A DNA stretch of 64,000 nt. It comes from Lachnospiraceae bacterium (GTDB lineage: Bacteria; Bacillota; Clostridia; Lachnospirales; Lachnospiraceae). Position numbers and translations under genes: made by a program. This document shows, piece by piece, positions 10,519 through 25,573 of the stretch (its first letter is position 1; each line of letters opens with the position of its first letter). Where the stretch lies: NCBI GenBank assembly GCA_022845955.1, contig AP025576.1:4712001-4776000 (forward strand), written 5' to 3'. The notes beneath the pieces are model-generated. The model worked only from the letters and a program-made list of their open reading frames with translations. It was not told the origin of the DNA and ran no database searches.

Positions 10519-11646
10519 TTATTCCTCTTTTTTCTCCGTCTGCGGGCCGAATACCCGTCCGGCCGCCTCCAGATAGCCATAGCCGTACAAATCATCCGGC
10601 TCCAGATAACTCGTTTCCGTCCATTCATTCCAGCTGTTGACGGTTATCAGAGGTGCCTGTTCCGGGTGGCTGTCCACATAAGCCTTTGCCATCCGGAATG
10701 CTTTTTCCACCGCCTCCGGGGTATTGTTCTTCATCACGCCGGGGCGGAAATCCAGAAACCGGGGATTGTTATCCCAGCCCACGGAAACATGAGGATAATA
10801 TGGAATCTGGTAATTGGCTTCAATCCGTTTCCACTCCGCCTCCGCATCCTTCAGGATCGCTTCATAATCCCTGTCTATTTCCGCGAAATGTACAAACTGG
10901 TAATGGGTCATCCCTTTGAATCCCAGTTTTCTGCATACCTCCATCCCCGTCGTCTGGGAATGGCTGTCCACGCCGGAATAATTCATCGCCTTTTCACTCC
11001 ACATGGTCAGCATATAATAAACGCCCGCCAGGCCGGCCCTCCTGGCTTCTTCCTCAAACCAGCCCAGGGCTTGCGCGGTCTTATCATAACCGCCAAGCCC
11101 GGTTACCAGATTGGTTAAATCATATATCATGAACACCGGCTTCCCATCAATACAATAATAATTAGGCTGTTTAAAATAGGTTCCGATGAGCCGGCGGCAA
11201 ATCCGTTCAAATTCCGCCCGGTCCACGGCTCCCCGCCATATAACATTGTCCTGCCCGCGCGACAGCCGGATATCCCATAGGGAATTGGCGTCATGATTGG
11301 CCCACATCAGAAAGAACTTCATCTTATTCCTGTTTTTCGCCTTCAGGAAGCCGTCATTCAGGCAGTTTTCCAGAAACGGCCGCCCATCATACCAATACCA
11401 GTCATAGATAAACGTATTGATGCCATGATCCACAGCCGCTTCGATTTCCATTTCCATCACATAGGGATCCGCCTCGTTCACATACCCCCACAGGGGTTTT
11501 CTCGGCCAGCTGTGCCCCTCATATTTCCGGACACTGTTTTTTACAGACTGCCATTCTCCCATTCCCTCCGGCCAGAACATCCTGGTTCTCGGTTCATCCG
11601 GCGTATAAGCCGGCCAGACATAGGCCGCCACATCATATTTAGCCAT
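10519..11646 (-). CDS. WbsX / GH99-like glycan-active protein
   Basis: A 375-residue protein of the Glyco_tran_WbsX family, related to GH99 endo-alpha-mannosidases. Family features are the opening VAAYVWPAYTPDEPRTRMFW, the central INTFIYDWYWYDGRPFLE, and the closing ITVNSWNEWTETSYLEPDD. Members are found in polysaccharide gene clusters and in glycan-degrading loci. No signal peptide is present. The start at 11646 follows GGAGAAGGAAAG. Here it stands beside a catabolic locus rather than beside glycosyltransferases, which favours a hydrolytic role, but this is inference. Confidence 0.85.
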   Translation of the reverse strand: MAKYDVAAYVWPAYTPDEPRTRMFWPEGMGEWQSVKNSVRKYEGHSWPRKPLWGYVNEADPYVMEMEIEAAVDHGINTFIYDWYWYDGRPFLENCLNDGFLKAKNRNKMKFFLMWANHDANSLWDIRLSRGQDNVIWRGAVDRAEFERICRRLIGTYFKQPNYYCIDGKPVFMIYDLTNLVTGLGGYDKTAQALGWFEEEARRAGLAGVYYMLTMWSEKAMNYSGVDSHSQTTGMEVCRKLGFKGMTHYQFVHFAEIDRDYEAILKDAEAEWKRIEANYQIPYYPHVSVGWDNNPRFLDFRPGVMKNNTPEAVEKAFRMAKAYVDSHPEQAPLITVNSWNEWTETSYLEPDDLYGYGYLEAAGRVFGPQTEKKEE

Positions 11647-11719
11647 CGCTTTCCTTCTCCTTTTCCTTACAATTCCGATCTTTTTTATTATAGCAGAAAG
11701 AAGCCGCCCCATATATACC

Positions 11720-11762
11720 AAAAAAGAAGTGCCGACACAGAATTCTACTGCGTCAGCACTTC
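11720..11762 (-). terminator. Terminator of the 12-24 kb catabolic operon
   Basis: GAAGTGCCGACACAG (11726-11740) pairs with CTGCGTCAGCACTTC (11748-11762) with two wobble positions, followed on the minus strand by a run of six T. It overlaps the last codons of the aldolase gene, which marks that gene as the last of the unit. Confidence 0.85.
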
Positions 11763-12425
11763 GTCTATCCGTTTTTCTCCGTTGATTTCCGTCCAGTCCT
11801 TCCGGAAATCCGAAACCGCTTTATCTATCAGGGCGTTATCCACCATGGCATCCAGCACCGCCGGAGGCAGTGTCACCGCCTGTGCCCCTGCAAGGACGGC
11901 CTCCAGTACCTGTCCGCAGTTTTTGAAGCTGGCGGCAAGTACCTTTGTTTCGATTCCATGGATGCGGTACATAGATACGATGTCCGTTACCACCTGTCTG
12001 CTGTCCAGGGAAAGGTTCTGCATGCGGTTATAATAGACAGCCGCATAGTCCGCGCCCGCCATTCCGGCAAGAAAGGCCTGTTCCCTGGTATAGATAGCCG
12101 TAGCCGTGACGGCGAACCCCTTTCTTTTCAGTTCCCGGATGGCCTTGATGCCCTCCCGGTCCACAGGTACCTTGATATAGGTATTTTTCCCGTATACCGC
12201 TGCGACAGCCTCTGCTTCCGCCAGCACCGCCTGTACCGTTTCGCCGGTGGCCTGCACATGGAGGGGCAGGCCGCAGGCCGCTTCCCGTACCAGCTCCATC
12301 TGCTGTGCAAATTTTCTTTTTTCCTTTGCCAGGATGGAAGGGTTCGTGGTAATTCCCGTGAGGGGATACCCTTTTGTGCATCTCCTGATCTCTTCCACAT
12401 TCGCCGTATCCAATAACAGTTCCAT
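11745..12425 (-). CDS. fsa: Fructose-6-phosphate aldolase-like transaldolase
   Basis: A 226-residue TIM-barrel aldolase of the small transaldolase/FSA type, close to the length of E. coli FsaA (220). The Schiff-base lysine is Lys85 (NTYIKVPVDREG), at the same position as in FsaA, and Asp6 and Asn28 (ITTNPSI) match catalytic or structural positions. FsaA splits fructose 6-phosphate into dihydroxyacetone and glyceraldehyde 3-phosphate. In this operon it more likely cleaves the phosphorylated ketose made by the isomerase and kinase encoded upstream. It is the last gene before a strong terminator. The gene symbol reflects family, not proven substrate. Confidence 0.88.
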   Translation of the reverse strand: MELLLDTANVEEIRRCTKGYPLTGITTNPSILAKEKRKFAQQMELVREAACGLPLHVQATGETVQAVLAEAEAVAAVYGKNTYIKVPVDREGIKAIRELKRKGFAVTATAIYTREQAFLAGMAGADYAAVYYNRMQNLSLDSRQVVTDIVSMYRIHGIETKVLAASFKNCGQVLEAVLAGAQAVTLPPAVLDAMVDNALIDKAVSDFRKDWTEINGEKRIDEVLTQ

Positions 12426-12495
12426 TTCCGTATTTTACCGTCCTTTCCGCCGCCGTCCGCAGCCCCGCAGGGATGCCGCGGCTTTCGCAGCATGA

Positions 12496-13380
12496 TCACC
12501 CTTTTATAGCCCCTATCATAACACCTTTTACAAAATATTTCTGCACAAAAGGATAAATACACAGAACCGGAAGGGTGGAAACGATGATCGCACTGTACTT
12601 AATCGTCTGCGCCAGATAGATTTTTTTCTGCAGCGCTTCGGGATTCAGGTTCTGTGTCTGGCTCACATTGCCCACCGTATTCGTCACCAGGATATTGCGC
12701 AGGAAGGTCTGGAGAGGCAGCAGATCCTTGTCATTGATATAAATCAGCGCATTAAAGAAATCATTCCAGTGGCCTACCATATAGTACAGGGCAATGACGG
12801 CGATTACCGGCTTGGACAGGGGAAGAACCACTCTGGCCAGATACTGGATGGGATTGGCTCCGTCCAGGATGGCGGCTTCCTCCAGGCTCTCCGGGATGCT
12901 GTTTACGAAATAGCTGCGCATAATGATCATATTATAGACGGACAGGCAGCCCGGAATCATCATAGCCCAGACCGTATCCACCATGTGCAGCCCTTTGACT
13001 ACCAGATAGCTTGGGATCAGGCCGCCGCTGAAATACATGGTTATCATACAGATGACCATCAGGATGTTTTTGGGCATAAACTTTCTGCGGGAAAGGGGAT
13101 AGGCCATGCAGACCGTCATAAACAGATTGATTACCGTACCCGCCGCCGTATAAAATATGGTGTTGCGGTATCCGATCCAGATTTCCTTGTATTTCAGTAT
13201 TTCTTTATAGGAATCCAGGGAAAAACCCTTCGGCAGGAAAATCACATTTCCCCTCCATACCTCCGACGGATTGCTGAAGGATGCGATGACCACAAACCAC
13301 AGGGGCCAGGCAAACAGCAGGAACAGCACTATCATTATGAAAAGATTGGTGACATCAAAGGCATTGTTTTTCTTATCCAT
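12496..13380 (-). CDS. Carbohydrate ABC transporter permease, LplC/YtcP type
   Basis: A 294-residue permease with six membrane segments and the EAA loop LEEAAILDGANPIQYLARVV. The ending FVKGVMIGAIKG is typical for the LplC/YtcP subgroup, which carries large or complex oligosaccharides in Firmicutes. GGAGGAGG precedes the start. It follows the LplB-type gene by 13 bases in the same unit. Confidence 0.95.
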   Translation of the reverse strand: MDKKNNAFDVTNLFIMIVLFLLFAWPLWFVVIASFSNPSEVWRGNVIFLPKGFSLDSYKEILKYKEIWIGYRNTIFYTAAGTVINLFMTVCMAYPLSRRKFMPKNILMVICMITMYFSGGLIPSYLVVKGLHMVDTVWAMMIPGCLSVYNMIIMRSYFVNSIPESLEEAAILDGANPIQYLARVVLPLSKPVIAVIALYYMVGHWNDFFNALIYINDKDLLPLQTFLRNILVTNTVGNVSQTQNLNPEALQKKIYLAQTIKYSAIIVSTLPVLCIYPFVQKYFVKGVMIGAIKG

Positions 13381-13393
13381 CCCTATCCTCCTC

Positions 13394-14374
13394 CTACCAC
13401 AGGCTTTCGTTCATTGTCCGTTTGGCAATCTGGTTTGACATAAGCAGTAAAAACATGTTGATCAAGGAATTAAAAAGTCCCACCGCCGTGGAATAACCAT
13501 AATCGTTATCCACCAGGCCCACACGGTACACATAGGTGGAAAGCACGTCGGAGGCGCTCATGTTCAGCTGGTTCTGGAGCAGGAATACCTTTTCGAAGCC
13601 CACGCTCATCAGAGATCCGATCTGCAGGATCAAAAGCATTATGATCGTGGGTTTGATCGAAGGCAGATCCACATGGAGAATCCGCTGGAGCTTGGTGGCT
13701 CCATCCACAATAGCCGCCTCATGAAGCTGGTAATCCACGCCGGACAGCGCCGCGATATAGATGATGGAGGCCCATCCCATCCCCTGCCATACACTGCTCC
13801 AGACATAGATGGATTTGAAGTATTTCGCTTCCCCCATAAAGTTAACCGCTTCCATCCCCAGCAGCTGGAGAATACGGTTGATGACGCCGGTATTGGGATC
13901 CAGGAAAATGATGATCATACCGCTCATCACCACCGTGGATATGAAATAAGGGGCATAGGACAGCATTTGTATGGTTTTCTTGAAACGTTTCTGCCGCAGG
14001 TAGTTCAGCAGCAGGGCAAAAATGATAGGGATTGGGAAGCCCACCACCAGACTGTAAACGTTGATCAGAATGGTGTTTTTTAACAGCATGGTGAATTTAT
14101 AGCTTCTGAAAAAGCGCTGGAAATTATAAAACCCAACCCAGGGGCTTCCCCAGATTCCTTTTTTGACGTTGTATTCCTTAAAGGCCAGCTGGATTCCTCC
14201 CATGGGGATATAGCAGAACAGGATAAGGTATGCCAATGGGATCAGCACCATCAGGTACAACGTCCAGTTTCCTTTAACATCTTTGCGCAGGCGTTCGCCG
14301 AAGCTTTTTTGGGGAATTACGGCCGGCTGCCTGCTGTTTTCCGCCGCCTCCCTGTGATTCTTTCCTCTCCGCAT
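13394..14374 (-). CDS. Carbohydrate ABC transporter permease, LplB type
   Basis: A 326-residue permease with a basic N-terminal tail, six membrane segments and the EAA loop LHEAAIVDGATKLQRILHVD. The start at 14374 (MRRGKNHREA) has GGGAG six bases upstream and was preferred to an in-frame ATG at 14428, which would place the ribosome site inside the intercistronic hairpin. It pairs with the LplC-type permease downstream and the binding protein upstream. Confidence 0.92.
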   Translation of the reverse strand: MRRGKNHREAAENSRQPAVIPQKSFGERLRKDVKGNWTLYLMVLIPLAYLILFCYIPMGGIQLAFKEYNVKKGIWGSPWVGFYNFQRFFRSYKFTMLLKNTILINVYSLVVGFPIPIIFALLLNYLRQKRFKKTIQMLSYAPYFISTVVMSGMIIIFLDPNTGVINRILQLLGMEAVNFMGEAKYFKSIYVWSSVWQGMGWASIIYIAALSGVDYQLHEAAIVDGATKLQRILHVDLPSIKPTIIMLLILQIGSLMSVGFEKVFLLQNQLNMSASDVLSTYVYRVGLVDNDYGYSTAVGLFNSLINMFLLLMSNQIAKRTMNESLW

Positions 14375-14408
14375 GTTATCTCCCGTCCTCACTCTGTCAT
14401 TCATCCGT

Positions 14409-14449
14409 GGCTGCCGCACCGGCCGCACAACCCCTCCGGTGCGGCAGCC
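14409..14449 (-). promoter_or_regulatory. 14-bp perfect intercistronic hairpin after the binding-protein gene
   Basis: GGCTGCCGCACCGG (14409-14422) and CCGGTGCGGCAGCC (14436-14449) form a perfect, GC-rich stem with a 13-base loop. No T run follows in either direction, so it is not a normal intrinsic terminator. It most likely protects the 3' end of the binding-protein message or sets the ratio of binding protein to permease. Confidence 0.65.
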
Positions 14450-14480: not shown

Positions 14481-16106
14481 TTATTTCTCCATTTTCTGGT
14501 ATGCGCCGTTGTAGATGTCGGCGTATTCCTTACCGCCCATGGCATCCAGCTGGCTTATGTATTCGTCCCAGGTCGCTTCCAGATCTTTTTTGCCGGTAGT
14601 AACCTCGGCCAGATATTCCATAACATAGTCGGAGATATCCGTATTAATTTCCACGATCCGTTTGGATTCCTCCTCCGTCAGCTTCAGGGAAGGGAAGGGA
14701 TCGGCGCAGAGGCTGGAAATCCTGTTTTCTTCCGAGCTTCCTGACACGTTGCTTTCATCCCGGTACTGATCGTTGTAATAGGTCTGGGGCCATACCATGG
14801 GATTATATGCGGAGCCTTGTAATGTGGTGTTATCCCGCACCGTGGATTCATCCTCGCCATATTCGGTTCCTACGATATAATCCCATTTCCCGTCGTCTCT
14901 CCACTGCCAGGTCTTTCCTTCCACCCCCATAACGGAGAGGATGCCCCCTTCTTCACTGTAAAACTGATCCGCCCACGCTGCAGCGATTTCGGGATTTTCA
15001 CATTTATCCGTGATTACCATAGCGCCTTCCGACACACCCGCATCGGAGCTGACGCTTGTTTTTCCCCACGGGGTCATAACCATATAGTCATAGCCCTGGC
15101 TTAACTCGGAACCTACAGTCTCACTTGGCGACCAGCTGTAAAAATAGCCATACACATCGGACGGGCCTTCTGCATACTGCTGGTCAATAGTCTTGGAAAA
15201 ACAGTCTTTATCCAGCAGGCCTTCTTCATAGAACTTCGCCAGATAGGACAGGAACTCTTTATACGTCTCGGTTCTGGGCACATATACGATTTCCTCGTTC
15301 TGAACCGCACAGAAGGTATTGAAGTCCATGGGCAGCATGTACTGGAACAGATAAATCGGGGGAACGGAATTGTTGGCTTCAAAAGGGATTTCATCCGCTT
15401 TCCCGTTTCCATTGGGATCCTGTTCCTTGAATGCCTTCAGGACCTGATAAAGCTCTTCCATATTTGTAGGCTCTTCCATTCCTACCGCTTCCAGCCAGCG
15501 CATATTCTGCCACAAGAGGATGGTTGCGGGCACTCTGCGGCTGAGAGTGGGAAGGGAATAGATATTCCCGTCGGAGGATGTAATATACTGCCATGCATCT
15601 CTTTCATCCAGAAGCTTCTTGAGGTTGGGCATATACTGGTCAATCAGGTCATTAAGAGGCAGCAAGACACCCTGGAAGCCATATTTTTCGATTTCATTAT
15701 GTTTGATAAAGGATTTAAAAAGTACATCCGGATAATCTCCTGAGGAAAGCAGCAGCCCTCTCTTGTCATCCAGATCCGCGGGAAGGCAGGAAGTCACTTC
15801 CCATTTGACATTGGTATTCTCTTCCGCCACCTGGAACGCCAGCACATCGGGAAGCTCCGCTCCCGTATAGCCTGCGGACACCGCAAACATACTCATGGTC
15901 ACCGGCTCCGCAAGAGGGAAGGTTATCCCTAAGGCTTCTGCAGCCGTTTCTGCCGCGCTGTCCGCCTCTTTTGTTCCTTCCGTCTGCTGTGGGGTTGAGC
16001 CGGTATCTGTCTGGGTTTCCGCCGTTTTGCCGGAACACCCGATAAGTGATCCCGTTAACGCCAGCGCCAGCGCTGCCGCAAGAATCTTGTTGTATCCCTT
16101 TCTCAT
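14481..16106 (-). CDS. ABC transporter substrate-binding lipoprotein, LplA type
   Basis: A 541-residue lipoprotein with a signal peptide ending in LIGC (Cys24) and a Thr/Glu-rich linker. The mature part resembles the long LplA/YtcQ binding proteins, including the calcium-loop-like DPNGNGKADEIPFE about halfway. Extra-long binding proteins of this class usually accept oligosaccharides. The start at 16106 follows AAGGAGG; an open extension to 16241 runs into the neighbouring gene and is not used. It stands upstream of the two permeases with a hairpin in between. Confidence 0.94.
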   Translation of the reverse strand: MRKGYNKILAAALALALTGSLIGCSGKTAETQTDTGSTPQQTEGTKEADSAAETAAEALGITFPLAEPVTMSMFAVSAGYTGAELPDVLAFQVAEENTNVKWEVTSCLPADLDDKRGLLLSSGDYPDVLFKSFIKHNEIEKYGFQGVLLPLNDLIDQYMPNLKKLLDERDAWQYITSSDGNIYSLPTLSRRVPATILLWQNMRWLEAVGMEEPTNMEELYQVLKAFKEQDPNGNGKADEIPFEANNSVPPIYLFQYMLPMDFNTFCAVQNEEIVYVPRTETYKEFLSYLAKFYEEGLLDKDCFSKTIDQQYAEGPSDVYGYFYSWSPSETVGSELSQGYDYMVMTPWGKTSVSSDAGVSEGAMVITDKCENPEIAAAWADQFYSEEGGILSVMGVEGKTWQWRDDGKWDYIVGTEYGEDESTVRDNTTLQGSAYNPMVWPQTYYNDQYRDESNVSGSSEENRISSLCADPFPSLKLTEEESKRIVEINTDISDYVMEYLAEVTTGKKDLEATWDEYISQLDAMGGKEYADIYNGAYQKMEK

Positions 16107-16126
16107 ATTGAACCCTCCTTTATATT

Positions 16127-18139
16127 TTAACCGCGGATATCGGAAATCTCCGTCCGGTTCCGCATTTTCGGGAACGTAAATAAATATACGGCATCCGGCA
16201 GGGCTTCGGTCCGGAAGGAATTCCCCCCGCCGGTCAGGCATGACTGCCGGTATTCATTCTCTGTGTCCGTCCGGTAAAGCTGTGCACACAGGCTGCCGTC
16301 TTTCCCGCCGCAGCCCTTTTCTCCGGTGATTCCCTCCACCGTGATGTGCAGCGGGATTTCCTTTCCGGTCAGGTTTACCAGCAGTAAAGCTCCCTGCCCG
16401 TCATTTGCGGCCGCCATACAGTATATCCCTTCCGTCATGCCCTCCACCTTTACCCGGGTGCCCAATCGGTACAGCGCATTGAAACAGACAAATGCATAAT
16501 ATGCTTTAAAAACAGTCTTTCCGACCGGATCGAACAGGCCGCAATAGCTGCTGCCCGCCCATGCGTCATAATACATACAGGCATCAATGGGCGTATCCTG
16601 GAGCGCGCACATCATTGCCGCAATCCTGGCTGCATCCTCCGGCGTCCCGCGAAGGGCGGTTCCGGCATTCCATTCATTAAAAATCAATTCTGTCCCCTCC
16701 AGCCCGTAATCGTCCAGCTGTTCCCTGGCATATCCCGCATACCTCACGTTATCTTCGATATCCGCATAGCTATGGAAGGAGAAGAAATCCAAGGGACAGG
16801 AATGCGCAGGGGAGGTAATATGGTCCAGGAACCGGTGGAAGAATTCCACAAAATATCCGACCCTTGACGAGGAATGGGCGACCTGGGAATAATCCGCCGC
16901 GCTTAAGGCATAAAAACCGCAGCTGGAATAGCCTCCGATTTTTATCTCGGGAAATACCTGTTTCAAATGTTTTGACGCCGTTTCATAGAGGGCAAAATAC
17001 TGCTCCATGCTCCCCTTCCACATGGGATTCTCGGCAGCGTCCGGCATGTTGTCCGGCTCATTCCAAATTTCCCAGTAGCGGATGTTCATATGGTATCCGT
17101 TTCCCCAGCCCTTATTGTAATGCCGTATGATGCCTTCACAGATCCTTGCCCATTTTTGGTTGTCCCGGGGAGGATATATGTGATAGGCTTTGATATGCTG
17201 CAGATTCTCAATGGAACAGCCGAGCCGGTAAAAGGGTTCCATTCCATATGCTGTGATTTCCTCCATAAGCCTGTCGGTAAATGCAAAATCATAGCTGCCG
17301 ATATCCTCCGGATCCGCATCAAAATCGGGAAAGATATTCGCAATATCCACATAGTGGGCGCCGCCCCAGTCACCGCCTGTGTCATGCAGCCTGGAAAAAG
17401 GGATACCCGCTTCCGCCATTTTTTGGAATAAGCCTGAATTTCCATAGTCCTGCGGAACAAAAGGGACATTATTGACTCCGTGCATCGGTTTTATCCTGCC
17501 GCAGGCTTTTGAAAAATCTATAGTGTATTCCGCTTCCCGCTCCCTTTTTCTTTTCAGCTGTTCCCCTACGGCACCTCCCGGATGATTTTGTGCGAACTGC
17601 TCTTCCCTGAAGCCGGTTTTCTCCATCACCGCTGCCTGCAGTGCATCAAATAAAGCGCACATGACAACAAAGCTGGTGGTTCCCTGGCTGTTGAAACGAT
17701 CCGTTTCCCTGCCTATCCGTACCGGCAGAACCACATCCGCCTCCCGGGCCAGCCCGGAATCCGTATTCTCCGTTACCGTTATGATTGCGACCTTCTTCCT
17801 TTTCGCCGCCGTAAGCATCGGCAGCAATTCCTCTGTTTTTCCTCCGCGGGAGGCCAGGACCAGAACATCTCCCTCCTCCAGGAAACCCATCCCTCCGTGA
17901 TTGCCTTCCGACGGCGTGAGGAAACGCGCCGGACGGTCAATACAGCACATAAGATGTGCCAGATGCCGGCAGGCTATGCCCGTATGGCCGCAGCCGCCGG
18001 CCGCGATCCGTTTTGCCCCGGCCAGAAGGCAGACCGCCCGATCCAGTGCTTCATAATCCATGTAGGATTCTATGTTTCCTATCTCCCCGGCTTCCATACG
18101 CCATGCCTTCTGAACCGTTTCTTTCCGTGCTTTTTCCAT
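16127..18139 (-). CDS. SIS domain - GH39-like glycosidase fusion protein
   Basis: One uninterrupted 670-residue frame holds two domains that are normally separate. Residues about 25-192 form a SIS sugar-phosphate domain of the KdsD/GutQ type, with AAGGCGHTG at 46-54, SRGGKTEEL at 98-106 and FAQNHPGGAVGEQL at 182-195. Residues about 205-655 form a GH39-like glycosidase that begins at once with IDFSKACGRIKPMHGVNNVP. Its acid/base is likely Glu361 (WEIWNEPDN) and its nucleophile Glu489 (LIFNEWNAG). There is no signal peptide, so it should act on imported, possibly phosphorylated, glycosides. It lies 20 bases upstream of the binding-protein gene. A simple two-gene read-through was considered, but there is no stop or restart site at the joint. 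Confidence 0.85.
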   Translation of the reverse strand: MEKARKETVQKAWRMEAGEIGNIESYMDYEALDRAVCLLAGAKRIAAGGCGHTGIACRHLAHLMCCIDRPARFLTPSEGNHGGMGFLEEGDVLVLASRGGKTEELLPMLTAAKRKKVAIITVTENTDSGLAREADVVLPVRIGRETDRFNSQGTTSFVVMCALFDALQAAVMEKTGFREEQFAQNHPGGAVGEQLKRKREREAEYTIDFSKACGRIKPMHGVNNVPFVPQDYGNSGLFQKMAEAGIPFSRLHDTGGDWGGAHYVDIANIFPDFDADPEDIGSYDFAFTDRLMEEITAYGMEPFYRLGCSIENLQHIKAYHIYPPRDNQKWARICEGIIRHYNKGWGNGYHMNIRYWEIWNEPDNMPDAAENPMWKGSMEQYFALYETASKHLKQVFPEIKIGGYSSCGFYALSAADYSQVAHSSSRVGYFVEFFHRFLDHITSPAHSCPLDFFSFHSYADIEDNVRYAGYAREQLDDYGLEGTELIFNEWNAGTALRGTPEDAARIAAMMCALQDTPIDACMYYDAWAGSSYCGLFDPVGKTVFKAYYAFVCFNALYRLGTRVKVEGMTEGIYCMAAANDGQGALLLVNLTGKEIPLHITVEGITGEKGCGGKDGSLCAQLYRTDTENEYRQSCLTGGGNSFRTEALPDAVYLFTFPKMRNRTEISDIRG

Positions 18140-18169: not shown

Positions 18170-18892
18170 CTACCTGTCTGAACGGTTACGCTCTCTGTCC
18201 TGCGCCGCTCTTCGCACCGCACCTATCATTTCATCAATCAGACCTTCCCTGTCCTCTGCCCTGGCGATGCTGCTGGAAGCCCCTGTCGCCTGCGCCCCGT
18301 GGTATATAAGCGGATACACATCCTCTGCGCTTGTAATCCCCGCCCCCTGCAGCACGAGAATATGAGGATTGATGCTATGCACCGCGTCGATAGAAGCGCT
18401 GACATAATCCATGGAACGTTTTCCCGCCTGCCCGGATCCTATCAGCGCTTCCGGTTCCGCCACAATGATATCCGGTTCCAGACAGGCAATTGCGCGGGCC
18501 TGCGCGATGGTATCGGCACACACGATTACGGCAAGGCCGATCCCGTGCGCCCGCCGGATGGTTTTTTCCAGCGTACCCAGACTCAGCGGCTTCTCACAGT
18601 GGTTCAGCATGACGCCCGCGGCACCGGCGGCTTTCACCGCTTCCGGCAGGATATCCGCAAGCCCTCTTCCCGGTTCCAGCAAATCCATATGGGGCGCATA
18701 GACAAACAGCCTTTTCACCGCTTCCGCCACCCGGCGTATTTCCGTGTAGGGTGTGGTAAAGATGATATCCACACCGTATTTTTCGGAAGCCCTGTCCGCT
18801 GCCAGGGCCAATTCTAAAATATCATCTCCGTAGAGATACGATTTCGGCCCGATTTCAAAAAAGGGCGGAACCGGCACATTCTTCCGTTTCAT
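18170..18892 (-). CDS. Triose-phosphate isomerase-like sugar-phosphate isomerase
   Basis: A 240-residue TIM-barrel protein of the triosephosphate isomerase superfamily. The catalytic triad is conserved: Lys17 in EIGPKSYL (in place of the usual NWK), His98 in MLNHCEK and Glu146 in IVAEPEALIGSG. The divergent N-terminus indicates that it is not the housekeeping TpiA; related family members isomerise erythrulose phosphates in tetritol catabolism. It may convert a product of the aldolase encoded downstream. ATG at 18892 has AGGAG five bases before it; a GTG at 18907 that overlaps the upstream stop is the alternative. Confidence 0.8.
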   Translation of the reverse strand: MKRKNVPVPPFFEIGPKSYLYGDDILELALAADRASEKYGVDIIFTTPYTEIRRVAEAVKRLFVYAPHMDLLEPGRGLADILPEAVKAAGAAGVMLNHCEKPLSLGTLEKTIRRAHGIGLAVIVCADTIAQARAIACLEPDIIVAEPEALIGSGQAGKRSMDYVSASIDAVHSINPHILVLQGAGITSAEDVYPLIYHGAQATGASSSIARAEDREGLIDEMIGAVRRAAQDRERNRSDR

Positions 18893-18903
18893 CCTGGCTC
18901 CTC

Positions 18904-19404
18904 TCACTCTCCCATAACCATCACCTGCACCACCCGCTTACGCGCACGGACCTGATCCCAGTCGATGAAATAGGTATAGCCGAATTCCCCCAGATCCATT
19001 TTCCCTTCTTCGATTGCGATGCATTCCGAACGCCCGAAAAAACAGGAACGTAAATGGGCATCCGTATTCAGGCTGGTCCAGGGACCGGGTTCTCCCACAC
19101 TGTCCCCGAACTCCACATGCTTCGGTCCGGGGTGGAGATACTGGTTTTCCACCCGGCAGGTAGGTACCAGCCGCTCCATGATATTGCACAGATCCTGCTG
19201 GAGATATTCCAGGCCGAAATAGGTCCTGTCATGAGAGCATTCCTGCACCATGACGGAGCAGGTGGTGTGGTGGGAATAAACAGTCACCATACCGTTGCGG
19301 ACGCCGGACTTTTTCACAATCTCATTTACCTGTTCCGTAATATTATGGAAGGTCGGGTGCTGTCCTTCCGACTGTACTTCTATTTTTTCCCTGCAAAAAA
19401 TCAT
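18904..19404 (-). CDS. YjbQ family (UPF0047) protein
   Basis: A 166-residue protein of the YjbQ family, with the signature HHTTCSVMVQECSHD and further conserved GPWTSLNTDAHLRS and KMDLGEFGYTYFIDWD. Some members show weak thiamin-phosphate-synthase activity, but the physiological role is unsettled, and genes of this family recur inside sugar-catabolic operons. AGGAGG is 11 bases from the ATG at 19404 and only two from a TTG at 19413, so the ATG is preferred. Its stop overlaps the alternative GTG start of the TIM-like gene, which points to translational coupling. Confidence 0.88.
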   Translation of the reverse strand: MIFCREKIEVQSEGQHPTFHNITEQVNEIVKKSGVRNGMVTVYSHHTTCSVMVQECSHDRTYFGLEYLQQDLCNIMERLVPTCRVENQYLHPGPKHVEFGDSVGEPGPWTSLNTDAHLRSCFFGRSECIAIEEGKMDLGEFGYTYFIDWDQVRARKRVVQVMVMGE

Positions 19405-19461
19405 CGCTGCCAAAACCTCCTTTCCGTAACCGTCCAGACCTATCTGAACGATTACATCCGG

Positions 19462-20925
19462 CTATCTGCCGAACAGCCGGTTTGCTTCTTCAATCAGCAA
19501 GGCCGCCAGCAAATCGCCTCCCTCCGGCCCCACATAGGTGGATGCCGGCTCGCTGCTGTAGGATCCCCCCGCTATCGCCGCACGGGTTGGCAGATAATCC
19601 GCATAACCGTTGCACAGCTGGATATGAAAGACATTCCGCGCTCTGCAGCCGGCCCGGATACGAAGCCCGTATTCCGTAAAAAGTTCAAAGGGATGGGTGA
19701 CAAACACGGAATCCTGCAGGCGGAGGATATGCAGCTCCGCCGGAAAGGTACGGCTTTTCTGCTGCAGGGCATAGCGTTCGGCTATTCCGACAGGACCATA
19801 CAGCTTTAACTGATCGGTAATGCCCATGCGTTTTCCTTCCGTAAAACGGCCCCGGAAGTCCCGGATGATTTGTTCCGCTTCCCGGTATTCTTCCTCTCCC
19901 ACGGTCCGCAGTGGCAGCTCCTTATGTACTATGCGGTGCTCCAACACAGGCCGGCTCCCTTTTCTTCCCAGGGCTGTGCGGTATCCCCGCACAACGGCTT
20001 CGGCAATCCGTTCCCCGATGGCTTCGCAGGTTCCGGTCATGTCGAGGTTCCGGAAAACTTCCTCCTCCTGGGCGCTCCAGCGCAGCAGCTCCTCATGATT
20101 ATCCTTGCTGATACGCACCAGATCCAAAGGGTTCTGGTCACCCGCCGCCCCGCACAGAGGCAGGATATGGATATTCCCCAGCCTTTCCCGGATATGGTTT
20201 CTGGCATAATGCCAATAATCCGCGGATATAAAAGAATGCAGCTCCATCACCTGGGCCGGGCAGGGGACAGCGACGGCTGCGCCGGTGAGCGTCCCGGCTT
20301 CATCCCAGGTATAAAGCATCGTGACCGTCGGATCCGTGCTTCCTTCGAACCGCAGGAAGTCCGTCCGTGAACAGTCCCCATACATCCTCGCACTTTCGTG
20401 ATCGCCGTTTCCAAATACCGGCCGGCGGTTAAAGCCTACCACGGCATAATCCTCCGCCGTGCCGGCGCTTCCTTCCCTGCGGTTTTCCCATGCGTCCATA
20501 ATCAGGCATTCGATCCGGTCCGACAGGTATTGTCTGCCTTCTTCGCCGCAAAGGATGTTCTCCGGGGCCTCCGGCGTTTCCAGCCTGTCACTTCCCATAT
20601 ACCTTGCCAGCGTTTCATTCCCCACAACACTGAACCGGCTGGAGGTATGGGTATGGGTCGCACACAGGCTGACCTTATCCGGGGCCGGCCCCTTTCTCTT
20701 TGCCAGCCTGCGCCGTATTTCCGCCGTGAGGAAGTCGGGCACAGCCACCGTATCCATGGATACGAACACGGCCTGCTGATCGCCGTTATCCATAACCAGC
20801 GCGGATGCGGTGATGGGATCATGTACAAATTTGCTCACCCTCACGTACATCTGCCCCGCCAGATATACCGGCCTGTCCGGCGTAATATCCGCAGATGCCC
20901 AGCCTATCCGTAATGTATTCTCCAT
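19462..20925 (-). CDS. Neutral/alkaline ceramidase-like hydrolase
   Basis: A 487-residue protein resembling the N-terminal catalytic domain of neutral/alkaline non-lysosomal ceramidases. The opening LRIGWASADITPDRPVYLAG and the zinc-binding motif CATHTHTSS are typical. True ceramidases are secreted and about 650 residues with a C-terminal Ig-like domain; this one lacks a signal peptide and that domain. Proteins of this shortened class are frequent in sugar operons of Firmicutes and Bacteroidetes, and their substrates are unknown. It lies between the kinase and YjbQ genes, so an amidase or esterase step on an imported glycoside is plausible but unproven. Confidence 0.83.
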   Translation of the reverse strand: MENTLRIGWASADITPDRPVYLAGQMYVRVSKFVHDPITASALVMDNGDQQAVFVSMDTVAVPDFLTAEIRRRLAKRKGPAPDKVSLCATHTHTSSRFSVVGNETLARYMGSDRLETPEAPENILCGEEGRQYLSDRIECLIMDAWENRREGSAGTAEDYAVVGFNRRPVFGNGDHESARMYGDCSRTDFLRFEGSTDPTVTMLYTWDEAGTLTGAAVAVPCPAQVMELHSFISADYWHYARNHIRERLGNIHILPLCGAAGDQNPLDLVRISKDNHEELLRWSAQEEEVFRNLDMTGTCEAIGERIAEAVVRGYRTALGRKGSRPVLEHRIVHKELPLRTVGEEEYREAEQIIRDFRGRFTEGKRMGITDQLKLYGPVGIAERYALQQKSRTFPAELHILRLQDSVFVTHPFELFTEYGLRIRAGCRARNVFHIQLCNGYADYLPTRAAIAGGSYSSEPASTYVGPEGGDLLAALLIEEANRLFGR

Positions 20926-20998: not shown

Positions 20999-22516
20999 TC
21001 AGTTCCCGTATTTGCCAAAAACCGGCTCCAGTGCATGATACAAATCAATATAGGCGGCGAACGAACGGTCATAGACGGCCCTGTTCTCCTGTGCGGGTAC
21101 AAAAACCCGTCCAACCCCGGCCACCCTTTTTACGGCGCTGTCAATATCGGGAAAAATGCCGGCCCCCACACCCGCCAGGATTGCCGCTCCCAGGCAGGCA
21201 CATTCCTTTACCGGTATGGTTTCCACCTTTTTTCCGGTGACGTCCGCCTTGATCCGGCACCAGATATCGCTTTTGGCACCGCCCCCCATGGAATAGATGC
21301 CGGAAACCGTCTCCCCGATCCCTTCGATCTGTTCCACATTCCGCCGCAGCATATAAGCCACCGCTTCCAGGATCGCCCTTGAAAAATGCTTCCTCTCATG
21401 CCCCAGGGTCATGCCGTAAAATACCCCTCTTGCCATCGCATTATATTCCGGGTTGCTCGCCCCGCTCAGATGCGGCAGCATTACCAGCCCTTCGCTTCCC
21501 GCAGGGGCCAGCTCCGCTTCCCGGTCAATCAGCCGGTATATGTCAGTCCCTTCCAGGGCTTCCCTGTGCAGGAAACAGCCCGCATACCATTTGAGCACCA
21601 TACCCGCCGTCTGGGACCAGAGAAGGATGGTATACCGGCCCTTTACCGCATGGTTCTGGCAGGTGACGGGCCGTTCCTCACAATACGGGACAAACCCTTC
21701 CACCGCCGCGCTCACCGCCAGGCAGGATCCGGTAGTTTCCGTCACTTCCCCCGGGAATATCTTCCCGGCCCCGATGCTTCCGCAGGTCTGGTCCAACGCG
21801 CCGGTCACCACCAAGGTACCTCCGGAAAGGCCGGTCTGCCCGGAGGCTGCGGCGCTCACCGGCCCCACCGGCCGGCCGCAGCCCATCCTCTCCGGAAGCT
21901 GTTCCTCCGTAATTCCCAGATAACGGAGCATATCCCCCCACCAGCAATCCCGGTTGATGTCATACAAAAGGGAGGAGGCCCATAAATTTTCCTCACAGAC
22001 GTTTCTTCCGGTCAGCCGGTAAATCAGATAATCTTCTAACAGCAGATAATGCTTTGTCCGCTTAAAAGTATCGGGCCTTTCTTCTTTCAGCCATAAAATC
22101 TTGGTGGCGGGCCAGGTCGCCGTCACATCCGCCTGCCCGCTTTTCTCGTAGACAAGCCTTTTCCCGAAATAGGCGCGTATCCTGCCGGCTTCCTTTTCCG
22201 AACGGTTATCCAGCCAGCAGATGGCGTTCATCACCGGTCTGCCGGATTCATCCAGGCAAATCAGTGTCTCTCCCTGGCTGCTGACAGAAAGGGCCAGAAT
22301 CCGTTCCGGCGGTATTCCGCTTTCCGCCAGGAGCCTTTGCAGCAGCCTGCACAGAAGCGCCCAGTAATCCTCCGCCTTGTATTCCACCCATCCGGCTTTT
22401 TGTGTCAGGAGAACGTATTCTTCTTTTACCATATGTACCGCGGCGCCTCTATCCGTATAAAGCCCCAGTTTAAACGAAGTCGTGCCGGCATCTATGCCAA
22501 GTAAATATCCCGTCAT
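20999..22516 (-). CDS. FGGY family carbohydrate kinase
   Basis: A 505-residue sugar kinase of the FGGY family (xylulokinase, fuculokinase, gluconokinase and relatives). The N-terminal phosphate loop is LLGIDAGTTSFKLGLY; the C-terminal ATPase half contains TGALDQTCGSIGAGK and YSMGGGAKSDIWCRI. It should phosphorylate the ketose formed by the isomerase encoded upstream. Substrate cannot be assigned inside the family. Confidence 0.93.
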   Translation of the reverse strand: MTGYLLGIDAGTTSFKLGLYTDRGAAVHMVKEEYVLLTQKAGWVEYKAEDYWALLCRLLQRLLAESGIPPERILALSVSSQGETLICLDESGRPVMNAICWLDNRSEKEAGRIRAYFGKRLVYEKSGQADVTATWPATKILWLKEERPDTFKRTKHYLLLEDYLIYRLTGRNVCEENLWASSLLYDINRDCWWGDMLRYLGITEEQLPERMGCGRPVGPVSAAASGQTGLSGGTLVVTGALDQTCGSIGAGKIFPGEVTETTGSCLAVSAAVEGFVPYCEERPVTCQNHAVKGRYTILLWSQTAGMVLKWYAGCFLHREALEGTDIYRLIDREAELAPAGSEGLVMLPHLSGASNPEYNAMARGVFYGMTLGHERKHFSRAILEAVAYMLRRNVEQIEGIGETVSGIYSMGGGAKSDIWCRIKADVTGKKVETIPVKECACLGAAILAGVGAGIFPDIDSAVKRVAGVGRVFVPAQENRAVYDRSFAAYIDLYHALEPVFGKYGN

Positions 22517-22609: not shown

Positions 22610-23977
22610 TTATAATACGTCCAGATCGGCCAGTCTGCACATCGTCCGGATCAGTTCCGCATGGTTTCCGTAGCTGACAATCGTATGCTGTCCCCCCACC
22701 TTTTGCGCAAATTCCTCAACCGTACAGGAATCCGGGTATATCGCCAGGCTCGGAAGCTGGGGAGCCGGTGCATCCCAGCCGCACTCTTCCCAGACAGGAG
22801 GCTTTTTGGCATCGCCTGTGTAGAAATGCATGGCATACCGCCCCTTCCGGTACAGCAGCCTGGAACATGTGACATATCCCGGCTTTACCCTGGAAACATT
22901 CAGCAGCGAGGAATCCAACAGGCCAAACGCCGCAGGGAGCATGGTGACCGGCCCGTCGGCCGCCGGTTCCGGGATAAAATCAGGAACGCCGGCCAGCAGA
23001 CAGTCTTTGAAGAATTCATAATATTCCAGATAGGGGACCGTCTGATCCGTGGCAAAATGCATCAGAAGCTGTGTGGCCGAACCGAGAATGTCATTTTCCG
23101 GTATTACCTGCACGCCGTATATCCGATTCAGCAGCATGAAAACCATGGCGGGAGGAAAACCCAGCAGCTTTTTCATGCCGTCCACATCCAGCAGCGTCAC
23201 CGCATCGTATCCTCTCTCCTCCACCTTCCTGCCAATCGCCAGCGCATAGCGCACACCCCGTTCCACCGTTTCCTCCGCTCCTGCATCCCGGTTCAGGATG
23301 CACCAGTTCCGGTCAATATACGTTTTCCAGGTTTCGATATCCGCACGGGATACCTTCTCTGCATTCTGCACCATTTCCAGCATTTCGAAGGGTTCCGTCT
23401 CGATGCCGAGGACATGCCGGAGGGAGGTTCCTTCACACTGGGTTCCGTAAAGCAGCATATCACGGTAACCCATCGTGCCGATTTTCGCCTGACGCAGCCT
23501 CTGCAGCGCATATGCGGCCCGGATAAAGGAATCGATCCTCTCCTCCGGGTGTCCCTGATCCATTGTGCTGTATACATAGGAAAACCGGTATCCCATCTCC
23601 TCAAATACAGGACGCAGGGCGGTCGTCCCCGCCTGATCCGCCGTCGTGACGATATGTCCGTTTTCCATCCATCCGCACAGCCCCCACAGAAGCATAGGAA
23701 TATGACGGAAAGGATCCGTTACCTGTATCACCGCGTGGGAAGGGATCCAGCCGGCCACACAGATTACCAGACAGCAGAAACCGCCGCCTTCCAGCTTCCG
23801 AATGGCTTCCTGTGCCGTGCCGTATCCCGGATCATCCAGCACGATCCCCGCATCCACTGCTTCCACGCCCAGCTTACCCAACAGCTTCCACGCCTGATCA
23901 TGCTTGGCCTTCAGCCGTTCATATGGTGTGTTTACTTCCCCGAAACAAACGAATCCCGCTTTTCTGACACTCCTCAT
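22610..23977 (-). CDS. L-fucose/L-arabinose isomerase family protein
   Basis: A 455-residue protein of the L-fucose isomerase-like family. It opens with KAGFVCFGEVNTPYERLKAK and has a Rossmann-like first half (VAGWIPSHAVIQVTDPFRHI) and a C-terminal metal-binding half with VIPENDILGSATQLLMHF. Such proteins interconvert aldoses and ketoses. It is the first gene of the leftward catabolic unit, divergent from the LacI gene, with several TTTGCRCA words in the promoter region. The exact sugar is unknown; distance from true FucI argues against plain fucose. Confidence 0.85.
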   Translation of the reverse strand: MRSVRKAGFVCFGEVNTPYERLKAKHDQAWKLLGKLGVEAVDAGIVLDDPGYGTAQEAIRKLEGGGFCCLVICVAGWIPSHAVIQVTDPFRHIPMLLWGLCGWMENGHIVTTADQAGTTALRPVFEEMGYRFSYVYSTMDQGHPEERIDSFIRAAYALQRLRQAKIGTMGYRDMLLYGTQCEGTSLRHVLGIETEPFEMLEMVQNAEKVSRADIETWKTYIDRNWCILNRDAGAEETVERGVRYALAIGRKVEERGYDAVTLLDVDGMKKLLGFPPAMVFMLLNRIYGVQVIPENDILGSATQLLMHFATDQTVPYLEYYEFFKDCLLAGVPDFIPEPAADGPVTMLPAAFGLLDSSLLNVSRVKPGYVTCSRLLYRKGRYAMHFYTGDAKKPPVWEECGWDAPAPQLPSLAIYPDSCTVEEFAQKVGGQHTIVSYGNHAELIRTMCRLADLDVL

Positions 23978-24480: not shown

Positions 24481-24496
24481 AATGCAAATTTGCATT
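24481..24496. promoter_or_regulatory. 16-bp perfect palindrome upstream of LacI gene
   Basis: AATGCAAATTTGCATT is a perfect palindrome about 90 bases before the LacI start, in a position expected for an autoregulatory operator. Confidence 0.5.
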
Positions 24497-24586
24497 GAGA
24501 AACGAACAGAAACTACTTTGGCTTCCCTATTTTTAACCTGCCGGCTGCCGATGCAGCCAGAAATGCCATGGAACAGGAGGCAAACA

Positions 24587-25573
24587 ATGATTACCTTAAA
24601 GGACATTGCCGCAATCGCCAATGTAAGTACTTCAACTGCTTCACGGGCTTTAAACGACGATCCGCGAATCAGCCCGGAGCAAAGGCTCCGCATCCGGCGG
24701 ATTGCAGAGGAGCAGAATTATAAAAAGCACAAGCTCCGGAAACCGGATGATATGTGGAAGGATGCCGGTATCATTGTCCCGGAAATCAATTCCGGTTATT
24801 ATTCCAATCTTGTCCACATCGCATCCGATCAGTTTGCCAGGCAGCATTATTCTGTCCTGCTCCGTTTAAGCGGTTTCGACAGGGACACTCTGATCCGGCA
24901 TATATTCGGTTTCGGAAAAGCGGACATCCGCTGTGTCCTCATCGTGGCTGATGACGCGGAGCAGATCACGGAGGAAGTGTATCAGGCCCTGCGGCAGACC
25001 CGTATCCCCGCTATGTTTATCACCACCCAGTATAACCCGCACATGGACTATGATTCCATCTATGTGGATGAAACCCGGGGGATACGGGCGGGGGTGGAGT
25101 ATCTTACCGGAAAAGGCTATACCAGGATCGGTTTTATCGGGGAAGAAATGACCCGCGGCAGGCTGAAGGCCTTCCGCAGGGTCATGCAGGAAATCGGGAA
25201 TCCCGTTATCGAAGACTTTATTAAGACCGGCACTTTCCGTGCGGAAGAGGGCGGATACCACTGTATGAAGCAGCTGCTGAACAGGCCGGAACGCCCGGAT
25301 GCTATTTTTGCCGGTTATGATCAGATGGCTGTCGGCGCGCTTAAGGCGATTGACGAGGCCGGCCTGCAGGTCCCGGACGATATAGGGATTATGGGCTTTG
25401 ACAACATTATCATGTCAGCTTATATCCACAAGGGCCTGACCACCATCGAAAACCCTCTGGAGGATATGATATCCATCGCAGTGCGCGTCCTGATGAACCG
25501 CATGCAGAACGGGGATGCCGTTCCCCAGCAGATAGCGCTCAAACCCGAATTGGTGATACGGGAAACCACCTGA
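24587..25573 (+). CDS. LacI family transcriptional regulator
   Basis: A 328-residue repressor. Residues 1-50 hold the LacI HTH and hinge (ITLKDIAAIANVSTSTASRA), and the rest is the periplasmic-binding-like sensor domain with typical DAIFAGYDQMAVGALKAI and IGIMGFDN. The start at 24587 has AGGAGG six bases upstream; an open extension to 24482 runs across the palindrome and is not used. It is divergent from the isomerase-to-aldolase operon and is the obvious candidate to control it. Confidence 0.95.
   Translation: MITLKDIAAIANVSTSTASRALNDDPRISPEQRLRIRRIAEEQNYKKHKLRKPDDMWKDAGIIVPEINSGYYSNLVHIASDQFARQHYSVLLRLSGFDRDTLIRHIFGFGKADIRCVLIVADDAEQITEEVYQALRQTRIPAMFITTQYNPHMDYDSIYVDETRGIRAGVEYLTGKGYTRIGFIGEEMTRGRLKAFRRVMQEIGNPVIEDFIKTGTFRAEEGGYHCMKQLLNRPERPDAIFAGYDQMAVGALKAIDEAGLQVPDDIGIMGFDNIIMSAYIHKGLTTIENPLEDMISIAVRVLMNRMQNGDAVPQQIALKPELVIRETT

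Follow-up and report, generated by a model that had tools for sequence, protein, structure and literature searches.

Arabinose-5-phosphate isomerases of the KdsD/GutQ family carry a C-terminal CBS pair in addition to their SIS domain, and SIS domains also act as sensors in regulators of the MurR/RpiR type. The solved structure closest to the SIS domain described here is that of a Listeria monocytogenes protein titled merely a putative sugar-phosphate isomerase (3fxa), a chain of about 200 residues that comprises the SIS domain alone. On the glycosidase side, the GH39 β-xylosidases XynB1 (2bs9) and 1px8/1uhv are among the closest known systems, and the listings give the solved relatives in GH39 as xylosidases. 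The solved structure closest to the GH39 half (positions 16130–17533), that of the Croceicoccus marinus 'glucosidase' 5z3k, aligns Gln and Tyr with the catalytic residues Glu361 and Glu489, and is therefore a poor guide to the chemistry.

In the 64,000-nucleotide stretch of DNA analysed here (the window), which comes from a gut bacterium related to Eisenbergiella, a SIS domain and a GH39-like domain are encoded by one gene. Both are domains of known kinds, and their pairing seems to be new: a literature search, mostly without subscription journals, found no description of a fusion of SIS with a glycoside hydrolase, in agreement with the earlier note on this DNA, nor of the cassette of SIS, triose-phosphate-isomerase-like (TIM), YjbQ, FGGY kinase and sugar isomerase (ISO) genes to which it belongs. 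We propose that the protein is probably a bifunctional cytoplasmic enzyme that arose, as its sequence and surroundings suggest, by fusion of two genes of one glycoside-catabolism operon, and that its halves act at non-consecutive steps. Fused genes point to a shared function, and here a GH39-type glycosidase is linked to a cassette found repeatedly among clostridial genomes. The fusion would thereby mark out a little-known sugar pathway and offer a concrete route to the sugar of the cassette, as well as to the function of UPF0047/YjbQ proteins.

Domain structure and catalytic residues

The fusion frame is open throughout on the minus strand, and frame 1 of the plus strand contains several stops over the same positions (Table 1). 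The two halves match the Pfam families SIS (PF01380; 60.3 bits against a cut-off of 25, residues 39–167) and Glyco_hydro_39 (PF01229; 59.8 bits against a cut-off of 26, residues 276–462), the latter over profile positions 67–230 of 472 only; the fold of solved GH39 structures was matched over the whole GH39 domain. The AlphaFold2 model of the fusion has a mean pLDDT of 91.2 and a pTM of 0.74, which does not establish a firm packing of the domains. The joint measures about 5–8 residues, given that stand-alone SIS proteins mostly end at the equivalent of residues 197–200 and stand-alone GH39 proteins start with a Met near the equivalent of residue 203. No signal peptide was seen by eye on the fusion, which opens directly with the SIS domain.

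Table 1. Coordinates of the fusion gene, its parts and the neighbouring genes in the window.
Feature	Position	Strand	Basis
SIS-GH39 fusion gene, 670 aa	16127..18139	-	Open frame; Pfam SIS and GH39 above cut-off; AlphaFold2; same fusion in E. tayi
SIS domain, residues ~1-198	17546..18139	-	Conserved E104, E145, H186, H81; H52 at KdsD position 59; 3fxa fold match
Short joint, residues ~199-203	17531..17545	-	No start codon between HPGG and Met219
GH39-like domain, residues ~204-657	16169..17530	-	Glu361 and Glu489
Divergent LacI-family regulator	24482..25573	+	Pfam LacI 51.5 bits; 88% identical in E. tayi
ISO, FucI / sulfoquinovose-isomerase-like sugar isomerase	22610..23977	-	Pfam Fucose_iso_C and NCBIfam SlpQosIsomSftI, both below cut-off
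FGGY-family sugar kinase, XylB-like, under XylB cut-off	20999..22516	-	Pfam, NCBIfam
CerN, distant relative of neutral/alkaline ceramidase N-terminal domain	19462..20925	-	PF04734 20.2 bits, below cut-off 32.1
YjbQ / UPF0047 protein	18904..19413	-	Pfam, NCBIfam
TIM, triose-phosphate-isomerase-like, PRK04302 subfamily	18170..18907	-	NCBIfam 179.9 bits, cut-off 132
Probable ABC-importer solute-binding lipoprotein	14481..16106	-	Sequence; lipoprotein-like start
ABC permease 1	13394..14428	-	BPD_transp_1 53.4 bits, cut-off 26.4; 91% identical in E. tayi
ABC permease 2	12496..13380	-	BPD_transp_1 44.6 bits, cut-off 26.4; 94% identical in E. tayi
FSA (fructose-6-phosphate-aldolase) family aldolase	11745..12425	-	Pfam TAL_FSA; NCBIfam PRK12656 223 bits, cut-off 214
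WbsX / GH99-like protein, final gene of run	10519..11721	-	PF14307 166.6 bits

The motifs NEP and NEW of the GH39 half begin at residues 360 and 488, so that the catalytic pair has the numbers given in the earlier note, and alignment with the GH39 β-xylosidase XynB1 (2bs9) places Glu361 opposite Glu160 and Glu489 opposite Glu278. One of the two lies in the NEP motif and the other where the seventh strand ends, in keeping with GH39 membership; we take Glu361 to be the acid/base and Glu489 the nucleophile. Both are invariant in 89/89 rows (2 fusions and 87 GH39 sequences), these being the first 89 rows of an alignment, A2, from which cut and duplicate ORFs, sequences below 35% identity and two long ORFs (L041, L053) had been dropped. 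Of the 20 SIS rows of A2, 10 are misplaced (20–24% identity to the fusion), and for this reason A2 was not used for folding.

The SIS half superimposes on 3fxa with a TM score of 0.92 by target over 191 columns, at 40% identity, and has His52-Thr53 where 3fxa has Thr-Ser. With KdsD and GutQ it shares the fold as well as the equivalents of Glu111, Glu152, His193 and His88, the HPGG motif starting at residue 186. The first three of these (E104, E145 and H186 in the fusion) are kept in 21/21 rows of a SIS alignment, A4, built with 19 stand-alone SIS proteins after sequences below about 38% identity, cut or duplicate sequences, L108 and L111 had been left out. KdsD position 59, presumably a catalytic Lys in the native enzyme and Ala in the solved structure 2xhz, corresponds to His52, and since His replaces this Lys the SIS reaction may differ from that of KdsD. 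The fusion scored below the NCBIfam cut-offs both for KpsF/GutQ (TIGR00393, 113.4 against 203.7 bits) and for two equivalogs (93.9 against 505 and 96.8 against 481); no CBS pair was matched by Pfam, GH39 following the SIS domain instead, and the gene lies in a catabolic operon, unlike KdsD/GutQ. The description of this half as 'KdsD/GutQ-type' is thus apt only as a resemblance, and membership in that family was rejected on the cut-offs.

The Pfam matches, the catalytic residues and the confident AlphaFold2 model agree in predicting two complete domains with both likely catalytic sets on one chain.

Genomic context

The genes surrounding the fusion form a run on the minus strand (Table 1). No Pfam or NCBIfam family was matched by the presumed solute-binding lipoprotein, whose role is deduced from its lipoprotein-like start and from the two adjoining permease genes. 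Its likely start is at 16106, behind AAAGGAGG, as against 16241 for the start of the long frame, which overlaps the fusion (16106–16241). Among the operon genes scanned against Pfam and NCBIfam no PTS family was found; the two BPD_transp_1 permeases are present instead. The nearest named relative seen for the genome that contains the window is Eisenbergiella tayi DSM 26961, of the same genus, in which the gene order is kept from a GDSL esterase to the FSA gene. The WbsX / GH99-like gene is not a conserved member of the operon, no counterpart having been matched in E. tayi over a stretch that extends 3.5 kb beyond FSA.

Occurrence of the fusion and of its separate parts

The same fusion occurs in E. 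tayi, where each half is about 82% identical to that of the window copy. A scan of the genus found it in 2/13 genomes, these two. Among the matches listed from 397 genomes of the family, with at most three candidates scored per genome, and among 398 genomes of the phylum, with E up to 1e-35, it was seen only in the window's own genome. In a collection of 84,980 species genomes, one of the best 80 of at least 526 confirmed relatives is fused to SIS, and this one is E. tayi. Comparison of the two copies gave dN 0.103 and dS 0.716 for the SIS half (dN/dS about 0.14) and dN 0.101 and dS 0.878 for the GH39 half (about 0.12), values that indicate purifying selection on both halves. The earlier note's reading of a single 670-codon frame joining two complete domains is confirmed by the open frame, by the Pfam scores and by this second copy, and the fusion looks real but young, having been seen in one genus only among the genomes searched.

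Outside Eisenbergiella, SIS and GH39 were seen only as separate genes in the genomes searched. The refuting case named in the earlier note, homologues that are always two genes, therefore holds there as far as searched and fails inside the genus, where two species have the unbroken fusion. In two clostridial genomes the two are separate ORFs of one gene cluster: L086 has TIM, SIS, YjbQ, FGGY, ISO, FSA, GH39 and CerN in this order on a single strand, and in L083 the same families are clustered with GH39 divergent. The cassette was found at 2/79 non-Eisenbergiella GH39 loci, against about 0.03 expected by chance (a rough estimate that assumes genomes of 2.5 Mb).

Relatives of ISO occur in 30/391 genomes of the class. 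We examined 28 of the 29 loci other than the window's (all but that of G963); several contigs end inside the stretch, so that the counts are lower bounds. FGGY is near ISO at no fewer than 20 of these 28 loci, CerN at 18 or more, TIM and YjbQ each at 12 or more, SIS at 11 or more and FSA at 5 or more, and SIS, TIM and YjbQ occur together at 10 or more. The cassette of other Clostridia thus consists of the same families, to which FSA and CerN are often added, and its SIS proteins are 43–56% identical to that of the fusion; it differs in that SIS is a separate gene (10 of the 11 near ISO are ORFs of 197–232 aa, and the one in L161 is cut by the contig end) and in that GH39 is separate, in L083 and L086, or missing, at 28/28 class loci, several with contig ends inside the stretch. 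GH39 only rarely adjoins the cassette. The 8 closest ISO relatives in the class search (56–62%, L143–L150) are without SIS, TIM and YjbQ in the stretches examined, which argues against a single fixed pathway for all ISO genes. Beside one of them (L144, 61% identical, 10582–13200) lie a Gfo/Idh/MocA oxidoreductase and a class-III aminotransferase.

A scan of 392 genomes of the order matched ISO only in the window's own, yet two genomes of the family carry it: in G337 (L172, beyond the class search) ISO (58%) and SIS are about 8 kb apart, and in G222 (L173) a GH39 gene lies about 10 bases from ISO, without SIS. In a tree, the GH39 proteins of L083/L086, of L173 and of the fusion fall on different branches, so the link between GH39 and the cassette may have arisen more than once. 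The SIS half groups with 10 other GCGHSG-type SIS proteins, with a weak support of 0.397.

Origin of the fusion

At the joint the E. tayi gene has 22 codons more than the window copy. Its linker contains ACAGGGAGGAACAGGA followed by an ATG at codon 225, and in the alignment this Met coincides with the one that begins stand-alone GH39 proteins such as that of L020. In the window copy the 22 codons are absent and no ATG, GTG or TTG occurs from codon 186 (HPGG) to the ATG at 219, so its GH39 half can hardly be produced alone. As a control, AGGAG or GGAGG was sought 4–11 bases upstream of all internal in-frame ATG codons of both operons, and was found at 5/114 in E. tayi, codon 225 included, and at 1/122 in the window; of the four besides codon 225, two (codon 21 of the solute-binding protein and codon 11 of permease 1) look like the true starts of their genes.

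Because the E. tayi linker keeps a ribosome-binding site and an ATG at the start of stand-alone GH39 genes, and the window copy has neither, these data suggest that the SIS gene was read through into the GH39 gene and the product trimmed afterwards in the window species, the direction of change in the linker being drawn from two species only. An intermediate stage would have resembled E. tayi, with the ribosome-binding site and ATG inside the frame, and the window species would later have lost linker and start codon. That E. tayi instead gained the codons by insertion is less likely, given how precisely the start site is positioned. The two species seem to represent one gene fusion at different stages, the former start site being preserved within the frame in one and gone in the other.

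Such a read-through of co-regulated genes might also be neutral, tolerated without any functional coupling of the halves. This reading, which overlaps our preferred one in that a bifunctional enzyme needs no coupling, would fit the fact that the fusion was seen in two related species only, the start site retained in E. tayi and a pTM that establishes no firm domain packing. We consider it possible but rather doubtful, since the GH39 half of the window copy can hardly be made by itself and the frame is still open while synonymous sites have diverged by 0.7–0.9.

Proposed function

In the bifunctional enzyme that we favour, the substrates of the GH39 half should be glycosides taken up by the cell, because the frame begins with SIS and shows no signal peptide. 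The ABC system would import a glycoside, and the GH39-like half would hydrolyse it with retention, through Glu361 and Glu489, to free a monosaccharide; import by an ABC system means that this product should be without phosphate. The FucI-like isomerase would then convert the monosaccharide to a ketose and the FGGY kinase would phosphorylate it, after which the SIS half would shift the carbonyl of the sugar phosphate (ketose phosphate to aldose phosphate or similar), the FSA-type aldolase would cleave the product and the TIM-like isomerase would handle a three- or four-carbon phosphate. Since ketose formation and phosphorylation have to precede the SIS step, the halves would serve non-consecutive steps. 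Fusion would fix the ratio of the halves and may force the glycosidase into the oligomeric state of the SIS domain. Against this reading count the rarity of GH39 near the cassette, the GH39 gene of L173 that adjoins ISO without SIS, the different branches of the GH39 proteins, the close ISO relatives that lack SIS, TIM and YjbQ in the stretches examined, and His52 in the SIS half.

Alternatively, in line with the gating that the earlier note also proposed, the SIS half could be a sensor that binds a phosphosugar from further down the pathway and in response inhibits or stimulates the glycosidase, the pathway thereby gating its own entry step. Regulators of the MurR/RpiR type do occur among the sequence matches, the fused pair stands at the two ends of the presumed pathway, where feedback would make sense, and His52 departs from the presumed Lys of KdsD; but the three residues equivalent to Glu111, Glu152 and His193 are kept throughout, and the nearest stand-alone SIS genes sit among enzymes, without a partner domain, which makes a sensor distinctly unlikely. 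Hardly more probable is the wider proposal of a sugar pathway new to the literature (FucI-like isomerase, FGGY kinase, SIS isomerase, FSA-type aldolase, TIM-like isomerase), in which the orphan protein YjbQ/UPF0047 has a defined catabolic role and the glycosidase is physically coupled to the phosphosugar isomerase of a much later step, which also controls it.

The earlier note had suggested that the released sugar is channelled. In a direct form of this, the GH39 half would cleave a phospho-glycoside and hand the sugar phosphate to the SIS half. The reactions would then follow one another immediately, which would account for the joining, but the permeases in place of a PTS family among the operon genes scanned, the FGGY kinase and the listing of solved GH39 relatives as xylosidases all speak against it; it was abandoned as the main reading because the isomerase and kinase steps fall between the two reactions, and we hold it to be very improbable. 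A sequencing or assembly artefact joining two genes has a negligible chance, as a genome in a single contig of 7.29 Mb and a separate E. tayi assembly show the same fusion.

The sugar and neighbouring genes

The pairing of FSA with SIS has a chemical precedent in FsaA and KdsD: these two link glycolaldehyde plus glyceraldehyde 3-phosphate, Ara5P and Ru5P in a synthetic pathway that runs in the reverse sense (PMC9947464). A route through D-arabinose 5-phosphate is only a guess, because ribulose 5-phosphate could be fed straight into the pentose phosphate pathway. Neither a tally of 96 neighbouring proteins (DeoR regulators, 10/96, and single or few glycosidases) nor a scan of 10 proteins beside GH39 relatives (an α-L-fucosidase by L010 and a GH127 by L011) pointed to a single substrate. 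A hint of D-apiose comes from genes with DUF5060 and Apiosidase-like (PF13204) domains that adjoin the YjbQ gene of the cassette in L165 (3379–4962), L167 (12530–14113) and L170 (7806–9185); the three belong to one genus, so that the hint counts as one observation.

Two GH39 relatives are unusually long. One from Kiritimatiellae (L053, 5865–9464) has 731 residues ahead of the GH39 domain, with no Pfam match at E 0.001, and one from Lentisphaerae (L041, 7986–10793) is a frame of 936 codons, twice the usual length.
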